64,000 bases of DNA from Pseudonocardia alni (GTDB taxonomy: Bacteria; Actinomycetota; Actinomycetes; Mycobacteriales; Pseudonocardiaceae), in the NCBI RefSeq assembly GCF_002813375.1, contig NZ_PHUJ01000003.1, forward strand, positions 3,906,001 to 3,970,000, given 5' to 3'. Under the pieces are notes generated by a model. It searched no databases and was not told where the DNA came from. It saw nothing but the letters and a program-made list of their open reading frames with translations. This document shows, piece by piece, positions 3,317-17,365 of the stretch. Made by a program: the position numbers and the translations under genes. The first letter of the stretch is position 1; the number at the start of each line of letters is the position of its first letter.

Positions 3317-5236
3317 CTACCGGGACATCCCCGCCCCCTCCGGCGTCGCGATGCCGTAGCCGCGGATCTTGCGGTAGATCGTGGCCCGGCTCATCCCGAG
3401 CCGGCGCGCGGCCTCGGCCTTGTTGCCGTCGGCGTCGAGCAGGGCGTCGACGATGGCGTCGCACTCGATCGACTCCAGCGGGGTCAGCACCCGCCGGGCC
3501 AGCACCCGCGTCTCCGGCGGCAGGTCCTCCAGCCGGATCACCCCGGTCCGGCGACGGCTCACGACCTTGCGCAGCACCTGGTAGAGCTGCTCGACGTTGC
3601 CCGGCCACCGGTGCCGCATCAGCACCCGCAGGGCCTCCGGCGCACAGGTCAGGTCGGCGCCGCGCGTCAGCCGGGCGAGCAGGTACGGCACCAGCTCGGC
3701 GACGTCCTCCACGTGGTGGCGCAGCGGCGGGACCTCGATGGTGCGCGGGAAGCAGTCCAGCAGCGACGCGAGCTCGGGTGAGTCGGTCGTCCGGGAGCTG
3801 CCGCGGGTCGCGACGACCCAGGCCCGCTCCGGGTCGGTCGACTCGCGGTGCGGCTCGAGCACGTCGGCGAGCGCCGCCGCGGCGGCCGGGGGGAGCCGGT
3901 CGACCTCGCGCAGCACCAGCGTCCCGCCGCCGCCGTCGAGCTCGTCGGACACCTCGGAGAGCCATCGCGGGCCCACGTCGCCGGCGTCGAGCACACGCAC
4001 GTGCCCGGCGGGGGAGTGGAGGTGGTGAGTGGCGCGGGCCAGCGTGGTCCGGCCGGAGCCGTGCTCGCCCTGCAGCACCAGCCACTCGTTGGTGCGGAAG
4101 TGCCGGTCCACCGCCTGGGCGCACTTGGTCCACAGCGCCCCCGAGCCGACGGCGGTCGGCAGCGCGGTGGTGATCGTCGGGGTCGCGGAGCCGCGGCCGA
4201 CGGTGTCGCGGTGGGTCAGGCTCACCTGCAGGATGCCGCCCGCCGAGCCCGCCTCGTTCCAGCTCGGCCGGCACTGCACGCGCGCGGTCGCCCCGCTCGG
4301 CAGGTCGACGACGAGCTGGCGGTTGCGTCCGGCCCGCAGCGCGTCGGTCGCCCCGGCGAGCAGCGGGACCTGGTCACCGGGTGCGATGAGCTCGCGGGCG
4401 CGGTCGTTCATCATCACGAGGTCGTCGCCGACGGCGAGCACCGCGGAGTCGCCCCCGCGCTGGACCGCGGTCAGGTAGTCGTGCAGCAGCGTCAGCTCGT
4501 GCCGCCCGGACGCGGCGAGCAGCGCCTCCTCGATGCGGCGGGCCGTCGTCGCGGCGGTGGCGACCATCAGCGCGTTGGCCTCGCTCCGCCAGCAGGTCAG
4601 GTCGACGACGCCGAGGATCTTGCCGGTCACCGGGTGCCGGATCGGGGCGCCGGCACAGGCCAGGTCCTCCAGGTGCTCGACGAAGTGCTCGTGCCCGAAC
4701 ACCTCGGTCGGGCGCCTGCCCTCCAGCGCGGTGCCGATGCCGTTGGTGCCGACGTGCTGCTCGGCGTAGGAGAAACCGGGGACGAGCCACACCCGGTCCA
4801 GGTGCTGACGCAGCGCGGAGTCACCGGTCCGGCGGTCGAGGACGACACCGTCGCCGTCGCAGAGGATGAGGCTGACCGGCTCGGTGGCGAACTGGTCGCA
4901 CAGCTCGGAGACGATCGGCGTGGCCGCCCGCACCAGCGGGCTGTCGGTCTCGCGGCCGATCTCGGGCAGGTCGATGGAGTCGGGCGCGACGTCGCTGTCC
5001 CGCGACCGGATCCAGGACGCCAGGATCGGCGGGCGGACCGAGTCCTCACGCATCTGCTCGTGGTGCAGGAACGCGTCGCGGGCCGCCGCGATGCGTTCGG
5101 CCGCGGCGCTGGTGCTGGTCCTGGTGGCGGGTGTGGGCGCCGAGCCGGTGACGGGGGAGTCATGTCCGTGTCGCGGGCGCGGCGTCGGCCGGCCCGCCCG
5201 GGTGGCGCCCTGCGCGCCGTCGGGCAGGGGTCTCAC
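3317..5236 (-). CDS. MimR/AcoR-type GAF-Fis transcriptional activator of the monooxygenase cluster
   Basis: A 639-residue regulator. A GAF-type sensor spans about residues 105-240, an AAA+-like region about 365-565, and a C-terminal Fis helix-turn-helix (NKAEAARRLGMSRATIYRKI, near 605-624) binds DNA. Walker A is recognisable (GEHGSGRT, 390-397). The segment that should carry the sigma-54-contacting GAFTGA loop is deleted, and the Walker B acidic pair reads RE instead of DE (TLVLREV). This matches actinobacterial relatives such as MimR, which activate di-iron monooxygenase operons without sigma-54. The GTG start at 5236 is supported by GAGGAGG about 7 bases upstream. Divergent from prmA, it is the obvious candidate for inducer sensing. 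Confidence 0.88.
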   Translation of the reverse strand: MRPLPDGAQGATRAGRPTPRPRHGHDSPVTGSAPTPATRTSTSAAAERIAAARDAFLHHEQMREDSVRPPILASWIRSRDSDVAPDSIDLPEIGRETDSPLVRAATPIVSELCDQFATEPVSLILCDGDGVVLDRRTGDSALRQHLDRVWLVPGFSYAEQHVGTNGIGTALEGRRPTEVFGHEHFVEHLEDLACAGAPIRHPVTGKILGVVDLTCWRSEANALMVATAATTARRIEEALLAASGRHELTLLHDYLTAVQRGGDSAVLAVGDDLVMMNDRARELIAPGDQVPLLAGATDALRAGRNRQLVVDLPSGATARVQCRPSWNEAGSAGGILQVSLTHRDTVGRGSATPTITTALPTAVGSGALWTKCAQAVDRHFRTNEWLVLQGEHGSGRTTLARATHHLHSPAGHVRVLDAGDVGPRWLSEVSDELDGGGGTLVLREVDRLPPAAAAALADVLEPHRESTDPERAWVVATRGSSRTTDSPELASLLDCFPRTIEVPPLRHHVEDVAELVPYLLARLTRGADLTCAPEALRVLMRHRWPGNVEQLYQVLRKVVSRRRTGVIRLEDLPPETRVLARRVLTPLESIECDAIVDALLDADGNKAEAARRLGMSRATIYRKIRGYGIATPEGAGMSR

Positions 5237-5565: not shown

Positions 5566-7218
5566 GTGAGTCGGCAGAGTTTGGCGAAGGCTCACCAGAA
5601 GATCCAGGAGCTTTCCTGGGAGCCGCAGTACCACGAGCCGTACATGAAGTACGGAACCGACTACACCTTCAAGAAGGCGGCGAAGAAGGACCCGCTCAAG
5701 CAGGTCCTGCGCTCGTACTTCCCGATGGAGGAGGAGAAGGACCACCGCGTCTACGGCGCCCAGGACGGTGCCATCCGCGGCAACATGTTCCGGCAGGTGC
5801 AGGAGCGCTGGCTGGAGTGGCAGAAGCTCTTCCTGTCGATCATCCCGTTGCCGGAGATCTCGGCGGCGCGCTCGATGCCGATGCTGTTCCACGTGGTGCC
5901 GAACCCGGAGCTGCACAACGGCCAGGCGATCCAGATGATCGACGAGGTTCGGCACAGCACGATCCAGCAGAACCTCAAGCGCCTGTACATGAACAACTAC
6001 ATCGACCCGGCGGGCTTCAACAACTCGCTGCGGAACTTCCAGTCGGACTACTGCGGCACCATCGGCCGCCAGTTCGCGGAGGGGTTCATCACCGGTGACG
6101 CCATCACCGCCGCGTCGATCTACCTGACCATCGTCGCGGAGACCGCGTTCACGAACACCCTGTTCGTGGCGATGCCGGCGGAGGCGGCCGCCAACGGCGA
6201 CTACCTGCTGCCGACGGTGTTCCACTCGGTGCAGTCCGACGAGTCGCGGCACATCTCCAACGGCTACGCCACGCTCCTGATGGCGCTGTCGGACGAGGAC
6301 AACCGCCAGCTGCTCGAGCGCGACCTGCGCTACGCGTGGTGGAACAACCACCGCGTCGTCGACGCCGCCATCGGTACCTTCATCGAGTACGGCACGAAGG
6401 ACCGCCGCAAGGACCGCGAGTCCTACGCGGAGATGTGGCGCCGCTGGATCTACGACGACTACTACCGCAGCTACCTGCTGCCGCTCGAGAAGTACGGCCT
6501 GGTGATCCCGCACGACCTGGTCGAGGAGTCCTGGAACCAGATCTGGAACAAGGGCTACGTCCACGAGGTCGCGCAGTTCTTCGCCACCGGCTGGTGCGCC
6601 AACTACTGGCGCATCGACGGCATGACCGACACCGACTTCGAGTGGTTCGAGTACAAGTACCCGGGCTGGTACGACCGGTACGGCAAGTGGTGGGAGAACT
6701 ACAACCGCCTCGCCAAGCCGAACGGTCACCACGCCATCGTGGCCGAGGACGTCGACTACGTGTACCCGCACCGCTGCTGGACCTGCATGGTCCCGTGTCT
6801 GGTGCGTGAGGACATGGTCGTCGACAAGGTGGACGGCCAGTGGCGCACGTACTGCCACGAGGTCTGCCGCTGGACCGACGCCGAGGCCTTCCGGCCCGTG
6901 TACCAGGGTCGCGAGACCCCGAACATGGGCAAGCTCGTGGGTCACCGCGAGTGGGAGACGCTCTACCACGGCTGGAACTGGGCCGACGTCGTCCAGGACA
7001 TGGGCTTCGTCCGTGACGACGGCAAGACGCTGACCGCTCAGCCGCACCTCGATCTCGACCCGAAGAAGATGTGGACGCTGGACCACATGCGGCGCATGCC
7101 GCACCTGGCCAGCCCCAACGTCATCCTCAACGAGATGAGCGACGCCGAGCGCGAGGCGTTCGTGGCGGACTACAACCGCCAGGGGCCGGGAGGCCGGCCC
7201 GCGCCCACCGACGCCTGA
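5566..7218 (+). CDS. prmA: Soluble di-iron monooxygenase hydroxylase, alpha subunit (propane/THF monooxygenase type)
   Basis: The 550-residue catalytic subunit of a group 5 soluble di-iron monooxygenase, which inserts one oxygen atom of O2 into alkanes or cyclic ethers. The six iron ligands are visible: Glu97, the EVRH pair Glu127/His130, Glu192, and the ESRH pair Glu226/His229. The length fits PrmA/MimA/ThmA. The GTG start at 5566 has GAGGAG five bases upstream. It leads the order alpha-reductase-beta-coupling protein shared by prm, mim and thm clusters. Propane/acetone-type chemistry is more likely than THF oxidation because no thm-specific dehydrogenase accompanies it, but sequence alone does not settle the substrate. 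Confidence 0.93.
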
Positions 7219-7233
7219 GCGCGGGTCAGGCGA

Positions 7234-7275
7234 GGGGAGGGGGTCCCCGTCATGCCATGACGGGTCCCTCTCCCC
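7234..7275 (+). terminator. Hairpin 1 between prmA and prmB (attenuator or processing signal)
   Basis: An imperfect stem of about 20 bases starts 15 bases after the prmA stop. GGGGAG and CCCGTCATG on the left pair with CATGACGGG and CTCCCC on the right. There is no T-tract. Because prmBCD must still be expressed, partial termination or 3'-end protection of prmA mRNA is more likely than full termination. Confidence 0.6.
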
Positions 7276-7279
7276 GCGG

Positions 7280-7310
7280 CCCGGCCGGGGGGTCGTCTTC
7301 CCCGGCCGGG
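7280..7310 (+). terminator. Hairpin 2 between prmA and prmB
   Basis: Perfect 11-base arms CCCGGCCGGGG (7280-7290) and CCCCGGCCGGG (7300-7310) enclose a 9-base loop, directly after hairpin 1. The rest of the 7219-7424 gap leads to the prmB ribosome site AGAGAGG at about 7406-7412. Confidence 0.6.
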
Positions 7311-7424
7311 TCACCCCGGGACTCCCGTCCGCCGGGCGGGGCCCGGGGCGACGCCTGCCCACGTCTGTCCGATTGGTCTTTTTTCTCACGCCATTCGTCA
7401 CGCCAAGAGAGGTGGTCTGCGCTC

Positions 7425-8480
7425 GTGGGCGACAAACACGTCGTGCGGTTCGAGCCCGTCGGCATCGAGATCGAGGTCGACGAGGACCAGAACATCCTCC
7501 GCGCCGCGGCCGAGCAGGGCGTCCAGCTCATGCACGGTTGCAAGGAGGGCCAGTGCTCGGCCTGCAAGTCCTTCGTGCTCGAGGGCGAGGACATCGAGTA
7601 CGACAGCTACTCGACCTTCGCGCTCCCGGACTACGAGAAGGAGGAGGGCCACACCCTCCTGTGCCGGGCGCATGCCTACGAGGACCTGGTCATCGAACTG
7701 ACCAACTACGACGAGGAGATCATCCGGTCCGGCCTGCCCCTCACCAAGGGCGTGGTCGAGGTCGTGTCGGTCGAGGCCGTCACCCACGACATGCGGCATC
7801 TGACCGTCAAGCTGGTCGAGCCGTCGGAGATCAAGTTCTTCCCCGGGCAGTACATGGACCTCGTCTGCCCCGGGACCGAGGAGAGCCGTTCGTTCTCCAT
7901 GGCCAACACCCCCAACCGGGACGGCACCTACGAGTTCGTCATCAAGGTCTACCCGGGTGGGTTGTTCGGGACCTGGCTCGACGAGAAGGCCGCTCCCGGT
8001 GACCGGCTCGATGTCGAGGCGCCCTTCGGCACCTTCACCCTCCGTCAGAACCGCAGCTCGCCGATCGTCTTCGTCGGCGGTGGCGCCGGCATGGCGCCGG
8101 TACTGGGCCTGCTGCGGGCGATGGCCGATGGCGGCGTCGAACGACGGGCCACCTTCTACTACGGCGCGCGCACCGCGGCCGATCTCTGCTTCGAGAAGGA
8201 GATCGCCGAACTGGCGCCCCAGCTCAACGGCTTCCGGTACGTCCCCGCCCTGTCCGACGGCGACGGCGGGGACTGGGCCGGCGAGACCGGTCTGATCACC
8301 GAGGTGGTCAGGCGCAACGAATCCGATCTGAAGGGAGCGGATGCCTACGTCTGCGGTCCCCCGCCGATGGTCGACGCGGCGATCGCGACGCTGACCCAGC
8401 TGGGTGTGAGTGAGACCAACATCTTCTACGACAAGTTCACCACGACCGGTGAGCAAGAAGGCGAGGACGGACAGCAATGA
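7425..8480 (+). CDS. prmB: Di-iron monooxygenase reductase (2Fe-2S ferredoxin-FAD-NADH)
   Basis: A 351-residue reductase that passes electrons from NAD(P)H through FAD and a 2Fe-2S cluster to the hydroxylase. The N-terminal plant-type ferredoxin domain has Cys39, Cys44, Cys47 and Cys80. The FAD domain has the RSFSMANTP motif. The nucleotide domain has GGGAGMAPVLGLL and ends with CGPPPMVDAA. The GTG at 7425 was chosen because homology begins there; the reading frame is open further upstream into the hairpin region. Its stop overlaps the prmC start by four bases (ATGA), so the two are translationally coupled. Confidence 0.92.
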   Translation: MGDKHVVRFEPVGIEIEVDEDQNILRAAAEQGVQLMHGCKEGQCSACKSFVLEGEDIEYDSYSTFALPDYEKEEGHTLLCRAHAYEDLVIELTNYDEEIIRSGLPLTKGVVEVVSVEAVTHDMRHLTVKLVEPSEIKFFPGQYMDLVCPGTEESRSFSMANTPNRDGTYEFVIKVYPGGLFGTWLDEKAAPGDRLDVEAPFGTFTLRQNRSSPIVFVGGGAGMAPVLGLLRAMADGGVERRATFYYGARTAADLCFEKEIAELAPQLNGFRYVPALSDGDGGDWAGETGLITEVVRRNESDLKGADAYVCGPPPMVDAAIATLTQLGVSETNIFYDKFTTTGEQEGEDGQQ

Positions 8481-9685
8481 CTCAGTCCCCCACCACACAG
8501 GACACGTCGTCCGGTTCGCAGCGCAGCGTTCCCAAGCCCGTCTTCACCGACGCGGAGGCCGGAGCGCGGGAGTTCCCGGACTCGAGCTCGAGCGCACGCC
8601 ACTACAACTACTACACCCCGGCCAAGCGGAAGCAGACGCTGTACGAGGACACCACCGTCGAGGTCCAGCCGGACCCGCGGCACTACCTCGCGCAGGGCTG
8701 GATCTACGGCTTCGCCAACGGCGAGGGCGGCTACCCGCTGCACTGGACCAAGCTGAAGGCCTGGGGCGTCGACGAGCCCGAGCCGCAGCGCGGCATCGGC
8801 ACCGGCGGCATGCACGTGAAGAACTGGCCGGCCCACGGCTGGCACGAGTTCCGCGACCCGAACGAGGAGTGGGAGCAGAGCCTCTACCGGTACAACGCGA
8901 ACGTCGTCCGGCAGCTCACCCAGAACATCGAGAACGCCCGCAACGCGAAGGCGTTCGAGCTGTGGAACTCGAACTGGATCCGGTTCGTCGAGCGCAACGT
9001 CGGCGCCTGGATGCACATCGAGCACATCCTCGGCCTCTACGTCTTCGCGTCCAACGAGCGGTCCGCGCCGACCAACATGCACAACACGGCGCTCGCGGCG
9101 AACTCCACCCGTAAGATCCGCTTCGCCCAGGACCTGGCGCTCTACAACCTGACGCTGTCGGAGGAGATCGACGGGTTCGACGGCGCAGCCCACCTCGACG
9201 CGTGGGACAACGCGCCGGAGTGGCAGGGCGCCCGCAAGTTCACCGAGGCCCTCACCGCGGTCCAGGACGACTGGGGCGAGGCCATCTTCGCGGCCAACTG
9301 CGTCTTCGAGCCGCTGGTCGGTGAGCTGTTCCGCTCGAACCTGGTCATGCAGTCCGCCGCCACCAACGGCGACTACGTGACCCCGACGGTCATGGGTGCC
9401 GGCGAGTACGACTACGCCCAGCGCGACCTGCGCTGGTCGATCGCCTGTTTCGCGCCGCTCACCCAGGACCGCGAGTTCGCCGAGCACAACCGCTCGCTGA
9501 TGGGCGGCTGGCTGCGGACCTACGTCCCGCAGGCGCTGGAGGCCGCCCGGACCATGCAGCCGATGTGGTCCCAGTCGGACTCGAAGCCCCCCACGTTCGA
9601 GGACTCCCTCGACCGCGCCAAGAACCGGTTCGCCGGGATCTGCAGCGATCTCGGCCTCGACGTCCCCGAGGAGCTGAAGCAGTGA
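8477..9685 (+). CDS. prmC: Soluble di-iron monooxygenase hydroxylase, beta subunit
   Basis: The 402-residue structural partner of PrmA in the alpha2beta2 hydroxylase. It has the ferritin-like helical fold but, as expected for beta subunits, lacks the paired E-x-x-H iron-binding set seen in PrmA. The segments FANGEGGYPLHWTK and EHILGLYVFASNE look typical of the family. It is locked into the operon by four-base overlaps at both ends: ATGA with prmB and GTGA with prmD. Confidence 0.92.
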   Translation: MTQSPTTQDTSSGSQRSVPKPVFTDAEAGAREFPDSSSSARHYNYYTPAKRKQTLYEDTTVEVQPDPRHYLAQGWIYGFANGEGGYPLHWTKLKAWGVDEPEPQRGIGTGGMHVKNWPAHGWHEFRDPNEEWEQSLYRYNANVVRQLTQNIENARNAKAFELWNSNWIRFVERNVGAWMHIEHILGLYVFASNERSAPTNMHNTALAANSTRKIRFAQDLALYNLTLSEEIDGFDGAAHLDAWDNAPEWQGARKFTEALTAVQDDWGEAIFAANCVFEPLVGELFRSNLVMQSAATNGDYVTPTVMGAGEYDYAQRDLRWSIACFAPLTQDREFAEHNRSLMGGWLRTYVPQALEAARTMQPMWSQSDSKPPTFEDSLDRAKNRFAGICSDLGLDVPEELKQ

Positions 9686-10038
9686 CCAGCACCAGCCCGT
9701 TCAAGCAGGACAGCACCGCGTCGAACATGTGTGGCTTCACGCTGATGAACAACCAGATCGGCGCGGTCATCGCGACCGTTCTGGACCGTCAGGACAACGT
9801 GACCGTGCAGCACCTGCCCTCGATGATCCGCGTCGACGGCACGGGCAAGTTCGAGCTGGACTACGTCGCGATGGACGAGGAGGCCGGCCAGGAGGAGGGC
9901 TGGTTCGATGCCGCCCAGTTCGAGGAGAACATGTCCACCCACTACGGGCGGATGGTCCACCTGGACGACAAGACGATCATGTTCGCCAATCCCGAGGACG
10001 CCGCCGAGTACATCGACTTCGACCTGAAGCCGGTGTAA
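9682..10038 (+). CDS. prmD: Di-iron monooxygenase coupling/effector protein
   Basis: The 118-residue cofactor-free coupling protein (MmoB family) that docks on the hydroxylase and tunes O2 activation. Recognisable parts are NNQIGAVIATVLDRQDNVTV and the C-terminal region ending in YIDFDLKPV. The GTG start at 9682 overlaps the prmC stop in GTGA; a longer upstream reading frame is a shadow of prmC. It completes the four-component enzyme. Confidence 0.9.
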   Translation: MTSTSPFKQDSTASNMCGFTLMNNQIGAVIATVLDRQDNVTVQHLPSMIRVDGTGKFELDYVAMDEEAGQEEGWFDAAQFEENMSTHYGRMVHLDDKTIMFANPEDAAEYIDFDLKPV

Positions 10039-10060
10039 GGACCCGCTCCTCACCCGGATC

Positions 10061-10122
10061 GCACCGCCCGGGACGACGACCCGTCCCCGGCCCACCACGG
10101 CCGGCGACGGCCCGGGCGGTGC
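10061..10122 (+). terminator. Long stem-loop between prmD and the chaperonin gene
   Basis: Perfect 12-base arms GCACCGCCCGGG (10061-10072) and CCCGGGCGGTGC (10111-10122) enclose 38 bases. The inner part can pair again: CCGTC at 10081-10085 with GACGG at 10106-10110. It begins 22 bases after the prmD stop. It probably reduces or separates expression of the downstream chaperonin gene. Confidence 0.6.
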
Positions 10123-10218
10123 GCTCCACCCGCGCAGCGCGCCCGCACGGCGACACGGCTGCGCACGTTGATCCACACCCGCGCACCTGGACCGACTCTT
10201 TCTCCGGGAGGACCCACC

Positions 10219-11907
10219 ATGGCCAAGGAACTCCGCTTCGGCGCCGAGGGCCGTCATCTGCTGCAGGCCGGCGTCGACCAGCTGGCCGAAGCCGTCAAGA
10301 GCACGCTCGGCCCCAAGGGCCGCAACGTCATCCTGGAGAAGATCACGGGCTCGCCCGAGGTCACGAACGACGGCGTCACGATCGCCCGCGAGATCCACCT
10401 GCGCGACCCCTTCGAGAACATGGGCGCCCAGCTGGTCAAGGAAGCGGCGGTCAAGACCAACGACACGGTCGGCGACGGGACCACCACCGCGACCGTCATC
10501 GCCCAGGCCATCGTCCGCGAGGGCATGAGCGCCATCGAGCGCGGCGGCAACCCGGTGCTGGTCAAGCGGGGCATCGACATCGCGGTCAACGCGCTCGTCG
10601 ACCGTCTGCAGACGGTGTCGCACCCGGTCAGCACCGAGGAGGACTACGCCCGCGTCGCGTCCATCTCGGCCAACGACGACTACACGATCGGCCGCGTCGT
10701 CGCGAAGGCGCTGCACACCGTGGGCGACGACGGCGTCGTCACCGTCGACGACACCCCGCTGCCGGGCGTCTCGGTGGACTTCGTCGAGGACTTCGAGTTC
10801 GACAACGGGTACGTCTCGCCGTACATGGTGACCAACCCCGGCACGCTCGAGGCGATCGTCGACGACCCCTACATCCTCTTCACCGCGCACAAGATCAAGG
10901 ACGTCCAGCAGATCATGCCGGTGCTGGACCGGATCATGCGCAACGACCGGCGCCCGCTCGTCATCGTCGCGGAGACCGTCGAGGGCACCGCCCTGCAGAT
11001 GCTGGTCCACAACCACGTCAACGGGCACTTCCAGGCCGTCGCGATCAAGGCGCCGGGCTTCGGCGAGAAGCGCATCCACCTGCTGGAGGACATGGCCGCG
11101 CTCTGCGGCGGGCAGGTGCACTCCAAGAGCTCCTCGTTCTCGCTCGAGCAGATCGACGTCGAGCACCTGGGGCGCGCCGTGCAGGTGCAGGTCACCAGCG
11201 AGGGCACCACGATCATCGGCGGCGGCGGGGACAAGCAGAAGCTGGAGTACCGGCTGTCGCAACTGCGCGCCGAGCTGGCCCGCGCGACGATCGGCACCGA
11301 CGAGGACTTCTTCTCCGACCGCATCGCCCGGCTGTCCGGGAAGGCCGCGATCATCTCGGTCGGGGCACCGACCAACGCCGAGGCCCGCGAGATCCGGCAC
11401 CGTGTGGACGACTCGCTGCAGGCGACCCGGGCCGCGGTGGCCGAGGGCATCGTCGCCGGTGGCGGCGCGGCACTGCTGCACGCCGAGCCCGCTCTCGACG
11501 AGCTGGACGTGACCGGGGACTACCGGATCGGCGTCGAGATCGTCCGGCACGCGCTCACCGAGCCCGTGCACCTCATCGCCTCCAACGCCGGCTACGACGG
11601 CGACGAGGTGGTCAAGCAGGTCACGACCATGGGCGTCGACGAGGGCTTCGACGCCCTGGAGGGCCGCTTCGGGGACATGGTCGAGATGGGCATCATCGAC
11701 CCGCTGCGGGTCGTGCGCTCCGCCCTGCAGAACGGCGCCTCGGTCGCCGGGCTGATCCTCACCACCAACTCGCTGGTGGCCGAGGAGGTCACGCCCTGGA
11801 ACAAGGCGCTCATGACCGAGTTCGGCCAGCTCGACGAGGGCATCCCGCAGCCCAGCCCGGACTCGAGCACGCCCCAGTCGATGGGGCTCGGCCCGTCGGT
11901 CGGGTAG
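10219..11907 (+). CDS. GroEL-like chaperonin dedicated to the monooxygenase (MimG type)
   Basis: A 562-residue group I chaperonin-like protein. The ATPase motif GDGTTTATVIAQAI (Asp86 equals GroEL Asp87) and VAEGIVAGGGAAL are present, so ATP binding is expected. The C-terminus ends SMGLGPSVG and lacks the GGM-repeat tail of housekeeping GroEL, and no groES gene is adjacent. In mycobacterial mim clusters a GroEL-like protein in this position (MimG) is needed to fold the hydroxylase, so this is the likely role here. The ATG at 10219 follows GGGAGGA at 10206-10212; an in-frame upstream extension has no homology. Confidence 0.88.
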   Translation: MAKELRFGAEGRHLLQAGVDQLAEAVKSTLGPKGRNVILEKITGSPEVTNDGVTIAREIHLRDPFENMGAQLVKEAAVKTNDTVGDGTTTATVIAQAIVREGMSAIERGGNPVLVKRGIDIAVNALVDRLQTVSHPVSTEEDYARVASISANDDYTIGRVVAKALHTVGDDGVVTVDDTPLPGVSVDFVEDFEFDNGYVSPYMVTNPGTLEAIVDDPYILFTAHKIKDVQQIMPVLDRIMRNDRRPLVIVAETVEGTALQMLVHNHVNGHFQAVAIKAPGFGEKRIHLLEDMAALCGGQVHSKSSSFSLEQIDVEHLGRAVQVQVTSEGTTIIGGGGDKQKLEYRLSQLRAELARATIGTDEDFFSDRIARLSGKAAIISVGAPTNAEAREIRHRVDDSLQATRAAVAEGIVAGGGAALLHAEPALDELDVTGDYRIGVEIVRHALTEPVHLIASNAGYDGDEVVKQVTTMGVDEGFDALEGRFGDMVEMGIIDPLRVVRSALQNGASVAGLILTTNSLVAEEVTPWNKALMTEFGQLDEGIPQPSPDSSTPQSMGLGPSVG

Positions 11908-11939
11908 GTACCGGCCCGTCCGGTCACAGGAACAGTGGG

Positions 11940-11976
11940 GAGCGGCCCGGCACGCGCTGCGCGTGCCGGGCCGCTC
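11940..11976 (+). terminator. Terminator hairpin after the chaperonin gene
   Basis: Perfect 17-base stem starting GAGCGGCCCGG, with loop CTG, 33 bases after the stop. It is the strongest hairpin in the locus and implies that the amidohydrolase-fold gene is at least partly uncoupled from the main transcript. Confidence 0.75.
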
Positions 11977-12000
11977 CGCGACAGTGGAGAGGTGGTCGTC

Positions 12001-13149
12001 GTGGACCGGTGCTGCGGTGCGCCCCAGGGGCGTGGTGGTCTCCCGGCAGTCGTCGACGCCCAGGTGCACGGCTGGGACGGCCGGCCGCACAACCAGGCGG
12101 GCCCGGCGGGGGAGCAGTTCGTCGCCGACCTGCTGCACCGCCACCGGATGGTCGACCCGTCGCCGCGCCCGCTGTCCGCGGACGCGTTCGAGCTGGTCAC
12201 GCCGCAGGCACTGGCCGCGCACGTGCTCTCCGCGGTGGACCGCGCGGTGCTCGTCCCGGCCGGTTTCGAGGACCTGTTCGTGCTGGGGTTCGCCGCACCG
12301 GCCTGGCACGCCGAGCTCGCCGCCGAGCACCCCGGGCGGCTCGTGCTGGCGGGGGAGCTCGACCCCGCCGACCGGGCCCGCGCCCGCGGCATCGGGGCCC
12401 GGGTCGGCCGCGACGGTCTGCGCGCGCTGACCGTGCTGCCCGCCCGTCGTCCGGAGACCGCGCTGTCGCTGCGGGCGCCGTGGCTGCGCCGCACCCTGAT
12501 CCGGGCCGAGCAGGCCGGCGCCGGGGTGGTCCACATCGGGATCGCGCCGACCGCGCGACCGTCGCGCGCGGCACCGGAGTGGGCGCACGCGGGCGTCGTC
12601 GCCGAGGGCGACGCCGTTCCGCGGCCCCGGTGGCCGGAGTGGGCCGAGCCGGTCCGCGCGGGGTCCGCACTCCCGGTCCGGGTGCGCAGCGCCGGGCCGC
12701 TGCCGGCCGGTGCCGTCGACGTCACCGACGTCGCCGCGCTGGCCACGGCCCTGCCCAAGATCCGGTTCGTGGTCGGCGCCGCCTGCGCCCCGACCGCGTC
12801 GCTGGTCCGGTTGGCCCGCCTGCCCAACGTCTACGTGCTGCTCACCGACCTGCTGATCGCGTTGCGCCGGCACCGGGTGACCGCCGCCGAGGCGCTCGGC
12901 GAGCTGCTGGCCGCCTACGGCCCGGACCGGCTGATGTTCGGCAGCGGCTACCCGCTGGTGCGCCCGGCGCGCCTGATCCGCGACCTCATGACCTTCCGCT
13001 ACCCCGACGAGCTGCGCGGACGGTTCCCCGAGCTCGACGACGACGTCCGCGCCGCCCTGCTCGGCGGCACCGCGGCACGGGTCCACGGGTTCGACCTGGC
13101 CTGCGCCACCGTCCGTCCCCGCCGCCGAGGAGTGTTGAGCCCCACCTGA
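12001..13149 (+). CDS. Amidohydrolase-fold protein of the prm/mim cluster with degenerate metal site
   Basis: About 382 residues, corresponding to the amidohydrolase (amidohydro_2 TIM barrel) usually encoded after the chaperonin in prm/mim clusters. The overall path is preserved, for example DAQVHGWDG near the start and LMFGSGYPL near the end, but the metal ligands are not. The first D-x-H-x-H His is Gln, the mid-barrel His region reads VVHIGIAPT, the next expected His is absent (FVVGAACAP), and the last Asp of the GSD motif is Gly. It is therefore probably non-catalytic. GTG 12001 was chosen because GGAGAGG lies 8 bases upstream; GTG 11992 is possible. Confidence 0.7.
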   Translation: MDRCCGAPQGRGGLPAVVDAQVHGWDGRPHNQAGPAGEQFVADLLHRHRMVDPSPRPLSADAFELVTPQALAAHVLSAVDRAVLVPAGFEDLFVLGFAAPAWHAELAAEHPGRLVLAGELDPADRARARGIGARVGRDGLRALTVLPARRPETALSLRAPWLRRTLIRAEQAGAGVVHIGIAPTARPSRAAPEWAHAGVVAEGDAVPRPRWPEWAEPVRAGSALPVRVRSAGPLPAGAVDVTDVAALATALPKIRFVVGAACAPTASLVRLARLPNVYVLLTDLLIALRRHRVTAAEALGELLAAYGPDRLMFGSGYPLVRPARLIRDLMTFRYPDELRGRFPELDDDVRAALLGGTAARVHGFDLACATVRPRRRGVLSPT

Positions 13150-13213: not shown

Positions 13214-14227
13214 ATGGGACTCAACCGACGGCAGATGCTTCTCACGACGCTGGCTGCGGCCGGTGGCGCCGTACTGGCCGGGTGTGGCGGGGGCGGCAGG
13301 TCGGAGACCGGCACCGGTGCCGCGACGGGGAGTGCCGGATTCCCGGTGACGATCGAGGGCAAGCTCGGTGCGGCGACGATCCCGCAGGCCCCGCAGCGGG
13401 TGGTGTCCGTGGGCTACACCGACCACGACGCGATCCTCGCGCTCGGGGTGGCGCCGGTGGCGGCCCGCTACTGGTACGGCGACGAGGAGGTCGTCGTGCA
13501 GCCGTGGGCCCAGGCGGCCGCGCAGGCAGTGGGCGCGGCACCGGCGGTGCTGAACATGTCCTCCGTCGAGCCGGAGAAGATCGCAGCACAGCGCCCCGAC
13601 CTGGTGATCGGCCTCTACTCCGACCTCGACGCCCAGAGCTATCCGGTGGTGAGTGCCGTCGCGCCGACCGTCGGACCGCCCCGGGGGTTCGACGACTACG
13701 GCGCACCGTGGCAGGAGTACACCCGCGAGACCGGACGGGCGCTGGGCAAGGAGGCCGAGGCCGAGAAGCTGATCACCGATCTGGAGGCCAGGTTCGTCGC
13801 CGCCCGCGACGCCGACCCGCAGTGGAAGGGGCGCTCGGTCGTCGTCGCGAGCCGCAGCGCGGACAAGATCAGCGTGTTCTCCTCGCAGGACCCCCGCTCA
13901 CGGTTCTTCACCCAGCTGGGGTTCACGGTGCCGCCCCGGATCGACCAGCTGGCCGCAGGCAAGTTCTACACCGAGTTCAGCTTCGAGCAGGCGAGCGAGC
14001 TCGACCACGACCTCATCGTCTGGGATCAGCTGTCGTTCACCCCCGGCGGGAAGGCGACGGTCGTCGGGGACCCGCTGCTGTCGCGGTTGCCCGCGATGCG
14101 CGACGGGCGCACCGTGTTCCTGGAGGGGGCCACCGAGCTGGCCTTCGCCTGGCAGACCGTGCTCAGCCTCCCGTCCGTGCTCGACGCGGTCGTCCCCCAG
14201 CTGCAGCGGGCGATTCCGAAGACCTGA
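13214..14227 (+). CDS. Iron-siderophore ABC transporter substrate-binding lipoprotein (FecB/FepB family)
   Basis: A 337-residue lipoprotein. NRRQMLLTTLAAAGG is a Tat-type signal followed by the lipobox LAGC, so it should be exported folded and anchored outside the membrane. The mature part shows the two-lobed siderophore-binding fold, with QRVVSVGYTDHDAILALG in the first lobe and conserved Glu/Asp residues around RPDLVIGLYSD. It delivers ferric siderophore to an FecCD permease, but no permease or ATPase gene is adjacent, so its partners must be encoded elsewhere. The ATG at 13214 follows GAAGGGA; a longer frame from 13175 would spoil the signal peptide. Confidence 0.85.
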   Translation: MGLNRRQMLLTTLAAAGGAVLAGCGGGGRSETGTGAATGSAGFPVTIEGKLGAATIPQAPQRVVSVGYTDHDAILALGVAPVAARYWYGDEEVVVQPWAQAAAQAVGAAPAVLNMSSVEPEKIAAQRPDLVIGLYSDLDAQSYPVVSAVAPTVGPPRGFDDYGAPWQEYTRETGRALGKEAEAEKLITDLEARFVAARDADPQWKGRSVVVASRSADKISVFSSQDPRSRFFTQLGFTVPPRIDQLAAGKFYTEFSFEQASELDHDLIVWDQLSFTPGGKATVVGDPLLSRLPAMRDGRTVFLEGATELAFAWQTVLSLPSVLDAVVPQLQRAIPKT

Positions 14228-15650: not shown

Positions 15651-16277
15651 TCAGGATCCGTTGCGGATCCATTCCTCGAGGTGGGGTGCCTCGTCGCCGA
15701 TGCGGGTGGAGTCGCCGTGTCCGGTGCGGACCCGGGTGTCGGCGGGCAGGGGCAGCAGGGTGGTCCGGATCGACTCGATGATCGTGTCGAAGCTGGAGTA
15801 GGACCGTCCGGTGGCGCCGGGTCCGCCCTGGAACAGGGTGTCGCCGGTGAAGACGATGCCGAGCTCGGGGGCGTAGAGGCAGGACGAGCCGGGCGAGTGG
15901 CCGGGGGTCTGCAGGACGGTCAGGTCGATTCCGCCCGCGGTCAGGACCTGCCCGTCGGACAGCTCCTGGTCGGGCTTGCGGTCGGGCCAGGTCATGTCCC
16001 ACAGGACCATCTCGGCGGGGTTGAGCAGGATCGGCGCGCCGAAGCGGTCGGCGAGGGCGGGCGCCTGGTTGACGTGGTCGTCGTGGGCGTGGGTGCACAC
16101 GACGGCCTTGACGCGCCGGTCGCCGACGGCGGCGGCGATGGCGTCGGCGTCGTGGGCGGCGTCGATGACGATGACCTCGCGGTCGTCGCCGACGATCCAC
16201 ACGTTGTTGTCGACGTCGAAGGAGCCACCGTCGAGGTTGAAGGTGCCGGAGGTGACGACGTGGTCGATCGGGGCCAT
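15651..16277 (-). CDS. Metallo-beta-lactamase-fold hydrolase linked to mycothiol formaldehyde oxidation
   Basis: A 208-residue glyoxalase II-like protein. The metal motif THAHDDH is complete, with further ligands in TPGHSPG, FTGDTLF and GHGDSTR. It begins within the stop codon of the dehydrogenase gene (TGATG, one-base overlap), so the two are made together. This pairing is common in actinobacteria; the presumed task is hydrolysis of S-formylmycothiol, or a related thioester, to formate and mycothiol. The substrate is inferred from context only. Confidence 0.85.
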   Translation of the reverse strand: MAPIDHVVTSGTFNLDGGSFDVDNNVWIVGDDREVIVIDAAHDADAIAAAVGDRRVKAVVCTHAHDDHVNQAPALADRFGAPILLNPAEMVLWDMTWPDRKPDQELSDGQVLTAGGIDLTVLQTPGHSPGSSCLYAPELGIVFTGDTLFQGGPGATGRSYSSFDTIIESIRTTLLPLPADTRVRTGHGDSTRIGDEAPHLEEWIRNGS

Positions 16278-17365
16278 CAGAGGATCACCACCGAGCGGAG
16301 GACCTCACCGGCGTGCATCTTGTCGAAGGCCTGCTCGACGCCGTCGATCCCGATCTCCTCGGTGACGAACTTGTCGAGCGGGAAGCGTCCCTGCAGGAAC
16401 AGGTCGACGTAGGTCGGGAAGTCGCGGCTGGGCAGGCAGTCGCCGTACCAGGAGGACTTGAGGGCGCCGCCGCGGCCGAAGTAGTCGATCAGCGGGATCT
16501 CGGGGGCGTTGAGGTCGGGGGTGGGGACGCCGACCAGGACCACGGTGCCGGCGAGGTCGCGGGCGTAGAAGGCCTGCTTGTAGGTCTCGGGGCGCCCGAC
16601 GGCCTCGATGACGACGTCGGCGCCGTTGCCGTCGGTCACGCTCTGGATGTACTCGACCGGGTCGGTCTCCTTGGCGTTGACGGTGTGGGTCGCGCCGAAC
16701 TCCTCGGCCCACTTCAGCTTCCGCGGGTCGGTGTCGACGGCGATGATCGTCGTTGCACCGGCGAGCTTCGCCCCGGCGATGGCGGCGTCACCGACGCCGC
16801 CGCAGCCGATGACGGCGATGGAGTCGCCGCGGCCGATCTGGCCGGTGTTGACCGCGGCACCCAGCCCGGCCATGACGCCGCAGCCGAGCAGGCCCGCGAC
16901 CTTGGCGGGGGCGTCGGGGTTGACCTTGGTGCACTGTCCGGAGTGGACGAGGGTCTTCTCGATGAACGCGCCGATCCCGAGGGCGGGGGACAGCTCGGTG
17001 CCGTCCTCGAGGGTCATCTTCTGGGTGGCGTTGTGGGTGTCGAAGCAGTACTGGGGCTTGCCCTTCTTGCAGGCCCGGCACTGGCCGCAGACGGCGCGCC
17101 AGTTGAGGACGACGTAGTCGCCGGGTGCGACGTCGGTGACGCCCTCGCCGACGGACTCGACGATCCCGGCGGCCTCGTGGCCGAGCAGGAAGGGGAACTC
17201 GTCGTTGATGCCGCCGAGCTTGTAGTGCAGGTCGGTGTGGCAGACCCCGCAGGCCTGGATCTTCACCACGGCCTCACCGGGACCGGGATCGGGCACGTTG
17301 ATCGTCTCGACGGTGACCGGTTCACCCTTGGCGCGGGCCACGACTCCGCGTACCTGCTGTGCCAT
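16277..17365 (-). CDS. mscR: S-(hydroxymethyl)mycothiol dehydrogenase (mycothiol-dependent formaldehyde dehydrogenase)
   Basis: A 362-residue zinc-dependent alcohol dehydrogenase of class III type, oxidising the formaldehyde-mycothiol adduct with NAD+. The catalytic zinc set starts with [11 protein letters not shown] and GHEAAGIVE. The structural zinc cluster is [15 protein letters not shown]. The NAD-binding loop is [18 protein letters not shown]. Length and sequence match MscR/AdhE2 proteins of Rhodococcus and Amycolatopsis. The operon with the MBL hydrolase and closeness to the monooxygenase suggest it removes formaldehyde released from methyl groups, or from methanol or ether oxidation. 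A nitrosothiol reductase side activity is known in the family. Confidence 0.88.

Follow-up and report, generated by a model that had tools for sequence, protein, structure and literature searches.

A conserved amidohydrolase-like protein lacking the usual metal ligands is encoded next to the chaperonin of a Pseudonocardia di-iron monooxygenase cluster

Soluble di-iron monooxygenases (SDIMOs) are wanted for the oxidation of propane, acetone and chlorinated solvents, and are hard to produce. The cluster analyzed here, from Pseudonocardia alni, resembles the described mimABCD/prmABCD arrangement (PMC4428276, PMC7176365), in which a dedicated GroEL-like protein is given for the maturation of one such enzyme: MimG of another actinomycete is described as serving the maturation of MimAC (PMC7176365). 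Amidohydrolases belong to these clusters as well, namely the "metal-dependent hydrolase" of the prm clusters (PMC4428276), which is the canonical counterpart of the protein studied here, and the "amidohydrolase-like protein" WP_018330679.1 of the Mim cluster of another actinomycete, which we take as canonical from its length of 349 amino acids (PMC7176365). The proteome shares given in the same source are 4.0% for MimG and 3.2% for the cluster amidohydrolase-like protein, which are thus no less abundant there than MimA (1.8%) and MimC (3.8%). In the portions of the open-licence literature covered, we found no description of a cluster amidohydrolase without metal ligands. A precedent for an inactive chain of the amidohydrolase superfamily that another enzyme needs is pDHO, an inactive dihydroorotase chain necessary for the activity of Pseudomonas ATCase (PMC7053772). 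For the protein described below, which we call AHL (for amidohydrolase-like), pDHO is a works-like model only: it belongs to a different family and is a stoichiometric ATCase subunit, a kind of role that for AHL would be conjectural.

The window, a stretch of 64,000 nucleotides from a P. alni genome of 5,994,807 bases (G000), encodes on its plus strand, at 5566-13149, the large subunit, reductase, small subunit and coupling protein of a monooxygenase, a GroEL-like chaperonin and then AHL (Table 1). An earlier note on this DNA had spoken of a "prm cluster"; a mimABCD/prmABCD-type di-iron monooxygenase cluster is indeed present, but prm is merely one of two possible names for it. The intact frame and good ribosome site claimed in that note are borne out by an open frame of 382 codons and a stop, with a GTG start, a GGAG upstream and no internal stops, and all five motifs that it quoted (DAQVHGWDG, GELDP, VVHIGIAPT, FVVGAACAP and LMFGSGYPL) are found in the translation. 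Two further GroELs were found in the genome, with 47% and 45% identity to the mimG-type chaperonin. In the divergent regulator (3317-5236, minus strand) the matches to the sigma-54 activation domain are sub-threshold, so that it may act otherwise than classical sigma-54 activators do. On the 3' side of AHL lies a gene (13214-14227, plus strand) that, by sequence, appears to encode a lipoprotein-type substrate-binding protein, and which takes the same place in the loci L025, L028, L029 and L057. Further along, at 15651-17365 on the minus strand, are an S-(hydroxymethyl)mycothiol dehydrogenase (TIGR03451, 680 bits) and an adjoining gene whose product by sequence resembles a hydrolase of the metallo-beta-lactamase fold; the two are perhaps a formaldehyde detoxification pair.

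Table 1. Positions in the window of the cluster genes and of the AHL residues discussed in the text
Feature	Position	Strand	Basis
GAF/Fis-type regulator, divergent, start uncertain	3317..5236	-	PF01590, PF02954; regulator (REG) divergent from mimA where loci reach
mimA-type hydroxylase large subunit	5566..7218	+	PF02332 E 1.3e-57; only copy found in genome at E 1e-5
mimB-type reductase, start inferred	7425..8480	+	Syntenic homologues
mimC-type hydroxylase small subunit	8477..9685	+	PF02332 E 5.8e-40
mimD-type coupling protein, start inferred	9682..10038	+	Syntenic homologues
mimG-type chaperonin (GroEL-like), start inferred	10219..11907	+	Cpn60_TCP1 E 3.8e-74
mimG-AHL spacer: strong GC hairpin and GGAG ribosome site	11908..12000	+	Sequence, 93 nt
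AHL, amidohydrolase-like, without usual metal ligands	12001..13149	+	PF04909 match, alignment to canonical paralogues, AF2 TIM barrel
Gln21, at first His of beta-1 HxH	12061..12063	+	Gln 28/31 AHL, His 3/31; canonical His 23/23
His23, second beta-1 HxH His, kept	12067..12069	+	31/31 AHL; canonical 18/23, Ala 5/23
Glu119, AHL-specific invariant, end of strand beta-3	12355..12357	+	31/31 AHL; absent from 23 canonical rows
Thr144, at canonical beta-4 Lys	12430..12432	+	Lys 23/23 canonical, 0/31 AHL
His178-x-Gly180: His178 kept, Gly180 instead of beta-5 ligand His	12532..12540	+	Gly180 31/31; canonical His 23/23
AHL-only insert, residues 188-233, between beta-5 and beta-6	12562..12699	+	Gaps in most canonical rows
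Gly259-Ala260, at canonical beta-6 Glu-His	12775..12780	+	Glu or His in 0/31 AHL; canonical Glu-His 23/23
Gly316, at canonical beta-8 Asp (GSD/GAD)	12946..12948	+	Gly 31/31 AHL; canonical Asp 23/23

The sole Pfam match of AHL is to Amidohydro_2 (PF04909), at 54.3 bits over residues 69-364 (curated cut-off 26.4, E 2.2e-14); the two canonical paralogues encoded in the same genome score 144.1 and 172.4 bits against this profile. Its NCBIfam match, FuconLaconase, is below the cut-off at 21.5 bits. Neither the Pfam nor the NCBIfam profiles place AHL in the dihydroorotase family, and one of the canonical paralogues gives a sub-threshold dihydroorotase match of 16.2 bits. As had been claimed, AHL can be aligned with the cluster amidohydrolases, end to end, with a profile-profile probability of 100, E 1.2e-49 and 22% identity. 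With these proteins it shares the Pfam family, the cluster context, an N-terminus of the form GExYxVVDAxVHxWDxSPxNQ and the DP, GP and AARLY-type motifs. Our joint alignment comprises 31 AHL rows and 23 canonical rows, the latter chosen from 37 canonical ORFs found. The AHL rows are that of the window and those of 30 named loci; out of 34 such loci, L029 and L057, which are split, L058, which is cut, and L042, whose motifs are the same as those of L041, were omitted. Sources of canonical proteins were mim/prm-type clusters in further genomes of the same order and on two plasmids (one Rhodococcus, one Aminobacter), together with two loci of the genome to which the window belongs (C3, 2.90 Mb and 3.38 Mb).

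The metal-binding and catalytic set of the superfamily, which we take to be HxH on strand beta-1, one His each on beta-5 and beta-6 and an Asp on beta-8, was located through this alignment. All 23 canonical rows have the first beta-1 His, the beta-4 Lys, HxHK at beta-5, Glu-His at beta-6 and the beta-8 Asp. AHL lacks the set, and the second beta-1 His alone is kept throughout; position beta-6 reads Gly-(Ala/Ser/Val) in all 31 AHLs, and the glycines at 180, 259 and 316 are invariant. The earlier note had every expected position changed, which holds for the beta-4 Lys, beta-5 His, beta-6 His and beta-8 Asp (gone in 31/31) and for the first beta-1 His in 28/31, but fails at His23. This second beta-1 His is the least telling site, being retained in every AHL yet replaced by Ala in 5 of the 23 canonical rows. 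The canonical family itself thus varies at one expected ligand, with HxA for HxH. The canonical motif set (HxH or HxA, HxHKGPT, EHxGxP and S/A-D-Y) is accordingly missing from AHL, and no full set of metal-binding residues at shifted positions, the outcome that the note had named as contrary to its claim, was found in the joint alignment. Of the 84 columns that do not vary among the canonical rows, 24 persist in 90% or more of the AHLs and 33 have been lost from them; 81 columns are invariant across the 31 AHLs. The loss is not significantly enriched at catalytic columns (4/5 catalytic against 29/79 other canonical-invariant columns absent, p = 0.075), because AHL has lost many canonical-invariant residues; what carries weight is the identity of the lost residues and the completeness of their loss, rather than the enrichment.

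An AF2 model of AHL, built from 31 family sequences, is a TIM barrel (pLDDT 80.0, pTM 0.84). Among the Foldseek matches to it are 4l6d (E 2.4e-9, the best value) and 4dlf (E 3.2e-9). The best 50 matches, with TM-scores by query length of 0.43-0.57, are named amidohydrolases, related decarboxylases or hydrolases, or 3irs, all of which belong to the amidohydrolase superfamily. By its predicted fold, AHL is a TIM barrel of this superfamily. The single AHL sequence found no close relative of solved structure. The best PDB match of a mixed AHL and canonical profile is 3irs (BB4693, an uncharacterized TIM barrel of Bordetella bronchiseptica), with E 4.4e-8 as against E 0.21, the best value obtained, for the canonical profile alone; it also matches the AHL model in Foldseek (E 5.5e-9). 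Two of the residues missing from AHL, the beta-5 His and the beta-8 Asp, are missing from 3irs too in the alignment (GTAYP at beta-8); unlike AHL, it has a His at the beta-6 position. The COG3618 amidohydrolase 4dlf, which has a bound zinc, shares the fold as well: its LMFGSDWP aligns, in a significant piece, with the FGS-D/G-Y motif of beta-8. The piece that pairs its IDSHQHFW with the beta-1 motif lacks significance by itself. The Q-x-H and Gly of AHL correspond to HxH and Asp in 4dlf.

A barrel that has lost its metal might still hold a working pocket. Three residues, His23, Glu119 and His178, are invariant in all 31 proteins, and the model puts each of them at the end of a strand or close to it (beta-1, beta-3 and beta-5, respectively); His178 is two residues ahead of the lost beta-5 ligand. 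Other barrel residues (D19, W25, D26, D121-P122, Y317 and P322) are retained. Some amidohydrolase-superfamily lactonases, such as LigI, work without metal, which counts in the same direction. Through these residues AHL might bind a small molecule, or catalyze a metal-independent or unusually ligated reaction, for instance with a product of the monooxygenase pathway as substrate; it might also sense a metabolite. Against such a rewired site stand the complete loss of the beta-8 Asp, the beta-6 His, the beta-4 Lys and the beta-5 ligand His and the fixation of Gly at three sites, and we regard it as rather unlikely.

In addition to the missing residues, AHL is set apart from the canonical proteins by an insert of about 46 residues with the motif P-x-W-A-x-P-V-R-x-G-S-x-x-P-V-R and invariant W194, P212, W214, A215, P217, G221, P225 and R227. 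Mean entropy is 0.39 for residues 212-227, against 1.05 for the core and 1.44 for the whole insert. Judging from the fold, the insert should face the barrel mouth. In the window AHL model residues 215-220 and 222-230 have pLDDT below 50, and in a model of a second lineage (L038) this is so for residues 188-227; both models were built from shallow alignments (31 and 28 rows), and the low pLDDT may come merely from this shallowness. A conserved segment without a confidently predicted fold often marks a partner-binding element, and the insert might be one.

These changes could be those of a decaying duplicate of the cluster amidohydrolase without a present role, and two kinds of observation fit such a view. 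In the amidohydrolase tree (65 rows, 36 of them with unusual letter make-up; midpoint root) a very long branch, supported at 100/100, separates the AHLs as a group from the canonical set. Further, copies that are split or bear stops occur in G649, in G633 (= L057), where one AHL piece has an internal TAG, and as a second copy in G638 (= L029). However, neighboring genes are split too in G649 and G633, which suggests assembly errors, and in G638, where AHL alone is split on its contig, an intact copy lies on another contig; the broken copies may mostly be assembly errors. None of the 40 full-length copies contains a stop, and together with the 81 invariant columns the substitution rates speak against decay. 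In 11 AHL pairs with dS 0.05-0.35, which share members and are not independent, omega is 0.05-0.23 by a simple counting method on GC-rich genes; in the eight pairs measured gene by gene it is 0.05-0.15 for AHL and 0 to 0.62 for the other cluster genes (values for REG and mimA are absent in L048-L049). Every pair listed has a dS between 0.05 and 1. Distant pairs reach an omega of about 0.9; we discount these values, as dS saturates at around 0.5-0.8 in such GC-rich genes. Neutral decay, which the earlier note had itself proposed as a contrary outcome, is contradicted by the non-neutral omega of the close pairs, and a duplicate without a role is highly improbable. Subfamily-wide loss, purifying selection, grouping in the tree and constant synteny agree with that note in that AHL is not an ordinary pseudogene. 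There is a strong case that AHL would count as a pseudoenzyme, with its predicted catalytic residues lost and its gene kept by selection, and very probably the AHLs are a selected family of pseudoenzymes without metal ligands.

The distribution of AHL reaches little beyond a single genus. In a GTDB scan 34 AHL loci were found, 33 in Pseudonocardia and one in a Pseudonocardiales MAG. Matches at E 1e-20 occur in 20 of 297 genomes of the family, all within the genus of the window, and at E 1e-40 the window's own AHL is the sole match in a phylum sample of 396 genomes; the plasmid collection held no AHL homologues at E 1e-5. The genome scans are samples, and include MAGs and short contigs without flanks. 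Within the genus an AHL profile finds full-length copies in 40 of 62 genomes (525-618 bits) and AHL pieces alone in three more (G649, G640 and G633); canonical pieces score 116 bits at most, and just AHL fragments lie between 116 and 525 bits. A canonical amidohydrolase scoring at least 400 bits is encoded by 58 of the 62 genomes (59 have one at E 1e-60). AHL is therefore a Pseudonocardia subfamily with canonical copies elsewhere in the genome, a conclusion beyond the reach of one window.

All 40 genomes with a full-length AHL are among those that encode a canonical amidohydrolase of at least 400 bits, and pairs of a pseudo- and an active subunit are a common role of pseudoenzymes. AHL might on these grounds be an inactive subunit that tethers or regulates the canonical enzyme encoded elsewhere. 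However, the canonical protein is near-universal in the genus, so its co-occurrence with AHL is uninformative, and it is mimG to which AHL is linked: the fetched flanks of the 34 AHL loci, which span up to 10 kb and less where a contig ends, gave no match to a canonical amidohydrolase or a DUF59 (PF01883) gene. A role as partner of the active paralogue is thus improbable. Weak ADH matches (29-36%) are seen in the flanks of 16 of the 34 loci.

Unlike the canonical gene, AHL stands immediately after mimG and is without adjoining ADH and DUF59 genes. It directly follows mimG in all 34 named loci, including the split L029 and L057 and L058, which is cut by a contig end, and of the 40 full-length AHLs in the 62 genus genomes, 36 share contig and strand with mimA at a distance of at most 8 kb. 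Two more are on a different contig from mimA, and the genomes of the last two gave no mimA match. The nearest plausible AHL start comes 0-10 nt past the mimG stop in 11 of 31 loci, a spacing suggestive of translational coupling. In the lineage of the window, 93 nt with a hairpin separate the two genes, and the coupling there would therefore be weaker. The long GC hairpin of this lineage is at 11935-11995; other lineages have other hairpins or hardly any spacer.

Clusters without AHL also occur: a mimA match is present in 56 of the 62 genus genomes, and 15 of these 56 show no AHL. Two of the 15 (G636 and G646, with partial mimA) were left out, and of the remaining 13 clusters (L096, L137-L147 and L155) ten have an ADH-amidohydrolase-DUF59 module in the fetched stretch and three do not. 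Such modules are inside the mim/prm clusters in many other genomes, whereas the genome of the window has two of them (ADH, canonical amidohydrolase and DUF59; L059:7803-10554 and L060:9058-11941, near 2.90 and 3.38 Mb of C3), and about 0.5 Mb and 1.0 Mb separate them from the one SDIMO that the search found there. The strain G621 (L153) has two mim clusters, one on contig C1 with AHL and one on contig C2 with a canonical module upstream, in which AHL was not found. A tree of four joined cluster proteins, made with a quick method and SH-aLRT support only, does not separate the AHL clusters from the others: the AHL label changes at least five times, and therefore the slot after mimG has apparently been swapped repeatedly. 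Among the labels of this tree, L146 is marked canonical though its cluster shows ADH only, and the module of L153 lies upstream; the AHL label is unaffected by either.

Among the mechanisms considered, help in the maturation of the hydroxylase or its chaperonin is the best candidate. AHL would be an Amidohydro_2 barrel related to the mim/prm-cluster amidohydrolases, with its metal and catalytic residues mostly lost, that acts with MimG, and without any catalysis of its own, in the maturation or assembly of the MimA/MimC hydroxylase. The motif of the insert would fold upon binding a partner from the cluster, either MimG or a hydroxylase subunit, and AHL bound to this partner would hold or deliver the folding hydroxylase. 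The position of AHL after mimG, the abutting starts in some lineages and the conserved insert are compatible with a role in assembly alongside the chaperonin, which the earlier note had put forward. The maturation role described for MimG, the abundance of the cluster amidohydrolase-like protein beside MimA, MimC and MimG, and the precedent of pDHO speak for it as well. Counting against it are the repeated changes of the AHL label on the cluster tree, the 93-nt spacer and a faster drift: in the named loci with complete mimA, mimA is 90-100% identical to that of the window and AHL is down to 47%, so that AHL drifts faster than its supposed client. The 15 mimA genomes without AHL imply that it is not always needed, which likewise counts against a maturation role. 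Taken as a whole, a maintained pseudoenzyme that acts with MimG as a non-catalytic maturation or assembly factor of the hydroxylase is quite possible, if short of probable; for the maturation role as such, exerted with MimG, our confidence is tentative and slightly lower. More doubtful is the specific form in which AHL would be a dedicated pseudoenzyme co-factor of the SDIMO chaperonin, the first of its kind by our searches, whose insert binds the partner and which passes the folding hydroxylase to or from MimG.

As a chaperonin-linked protein that is apparently a former metal enzyme under selection, AHL is a possible missing component of SDIMO maturation, and it bears on the question of what an amidohydrolase is for in mim/prm clusters in the first place. 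The genus Pseudonocardia amounts to a natural experiment in this respect, with related clusters that have AHL, the canonical ADH-amidohydrolase-DUF59 module or neither, and the strain G621, which combines an AHL cluster with a canonical-module cluster, provides a natural comparison.
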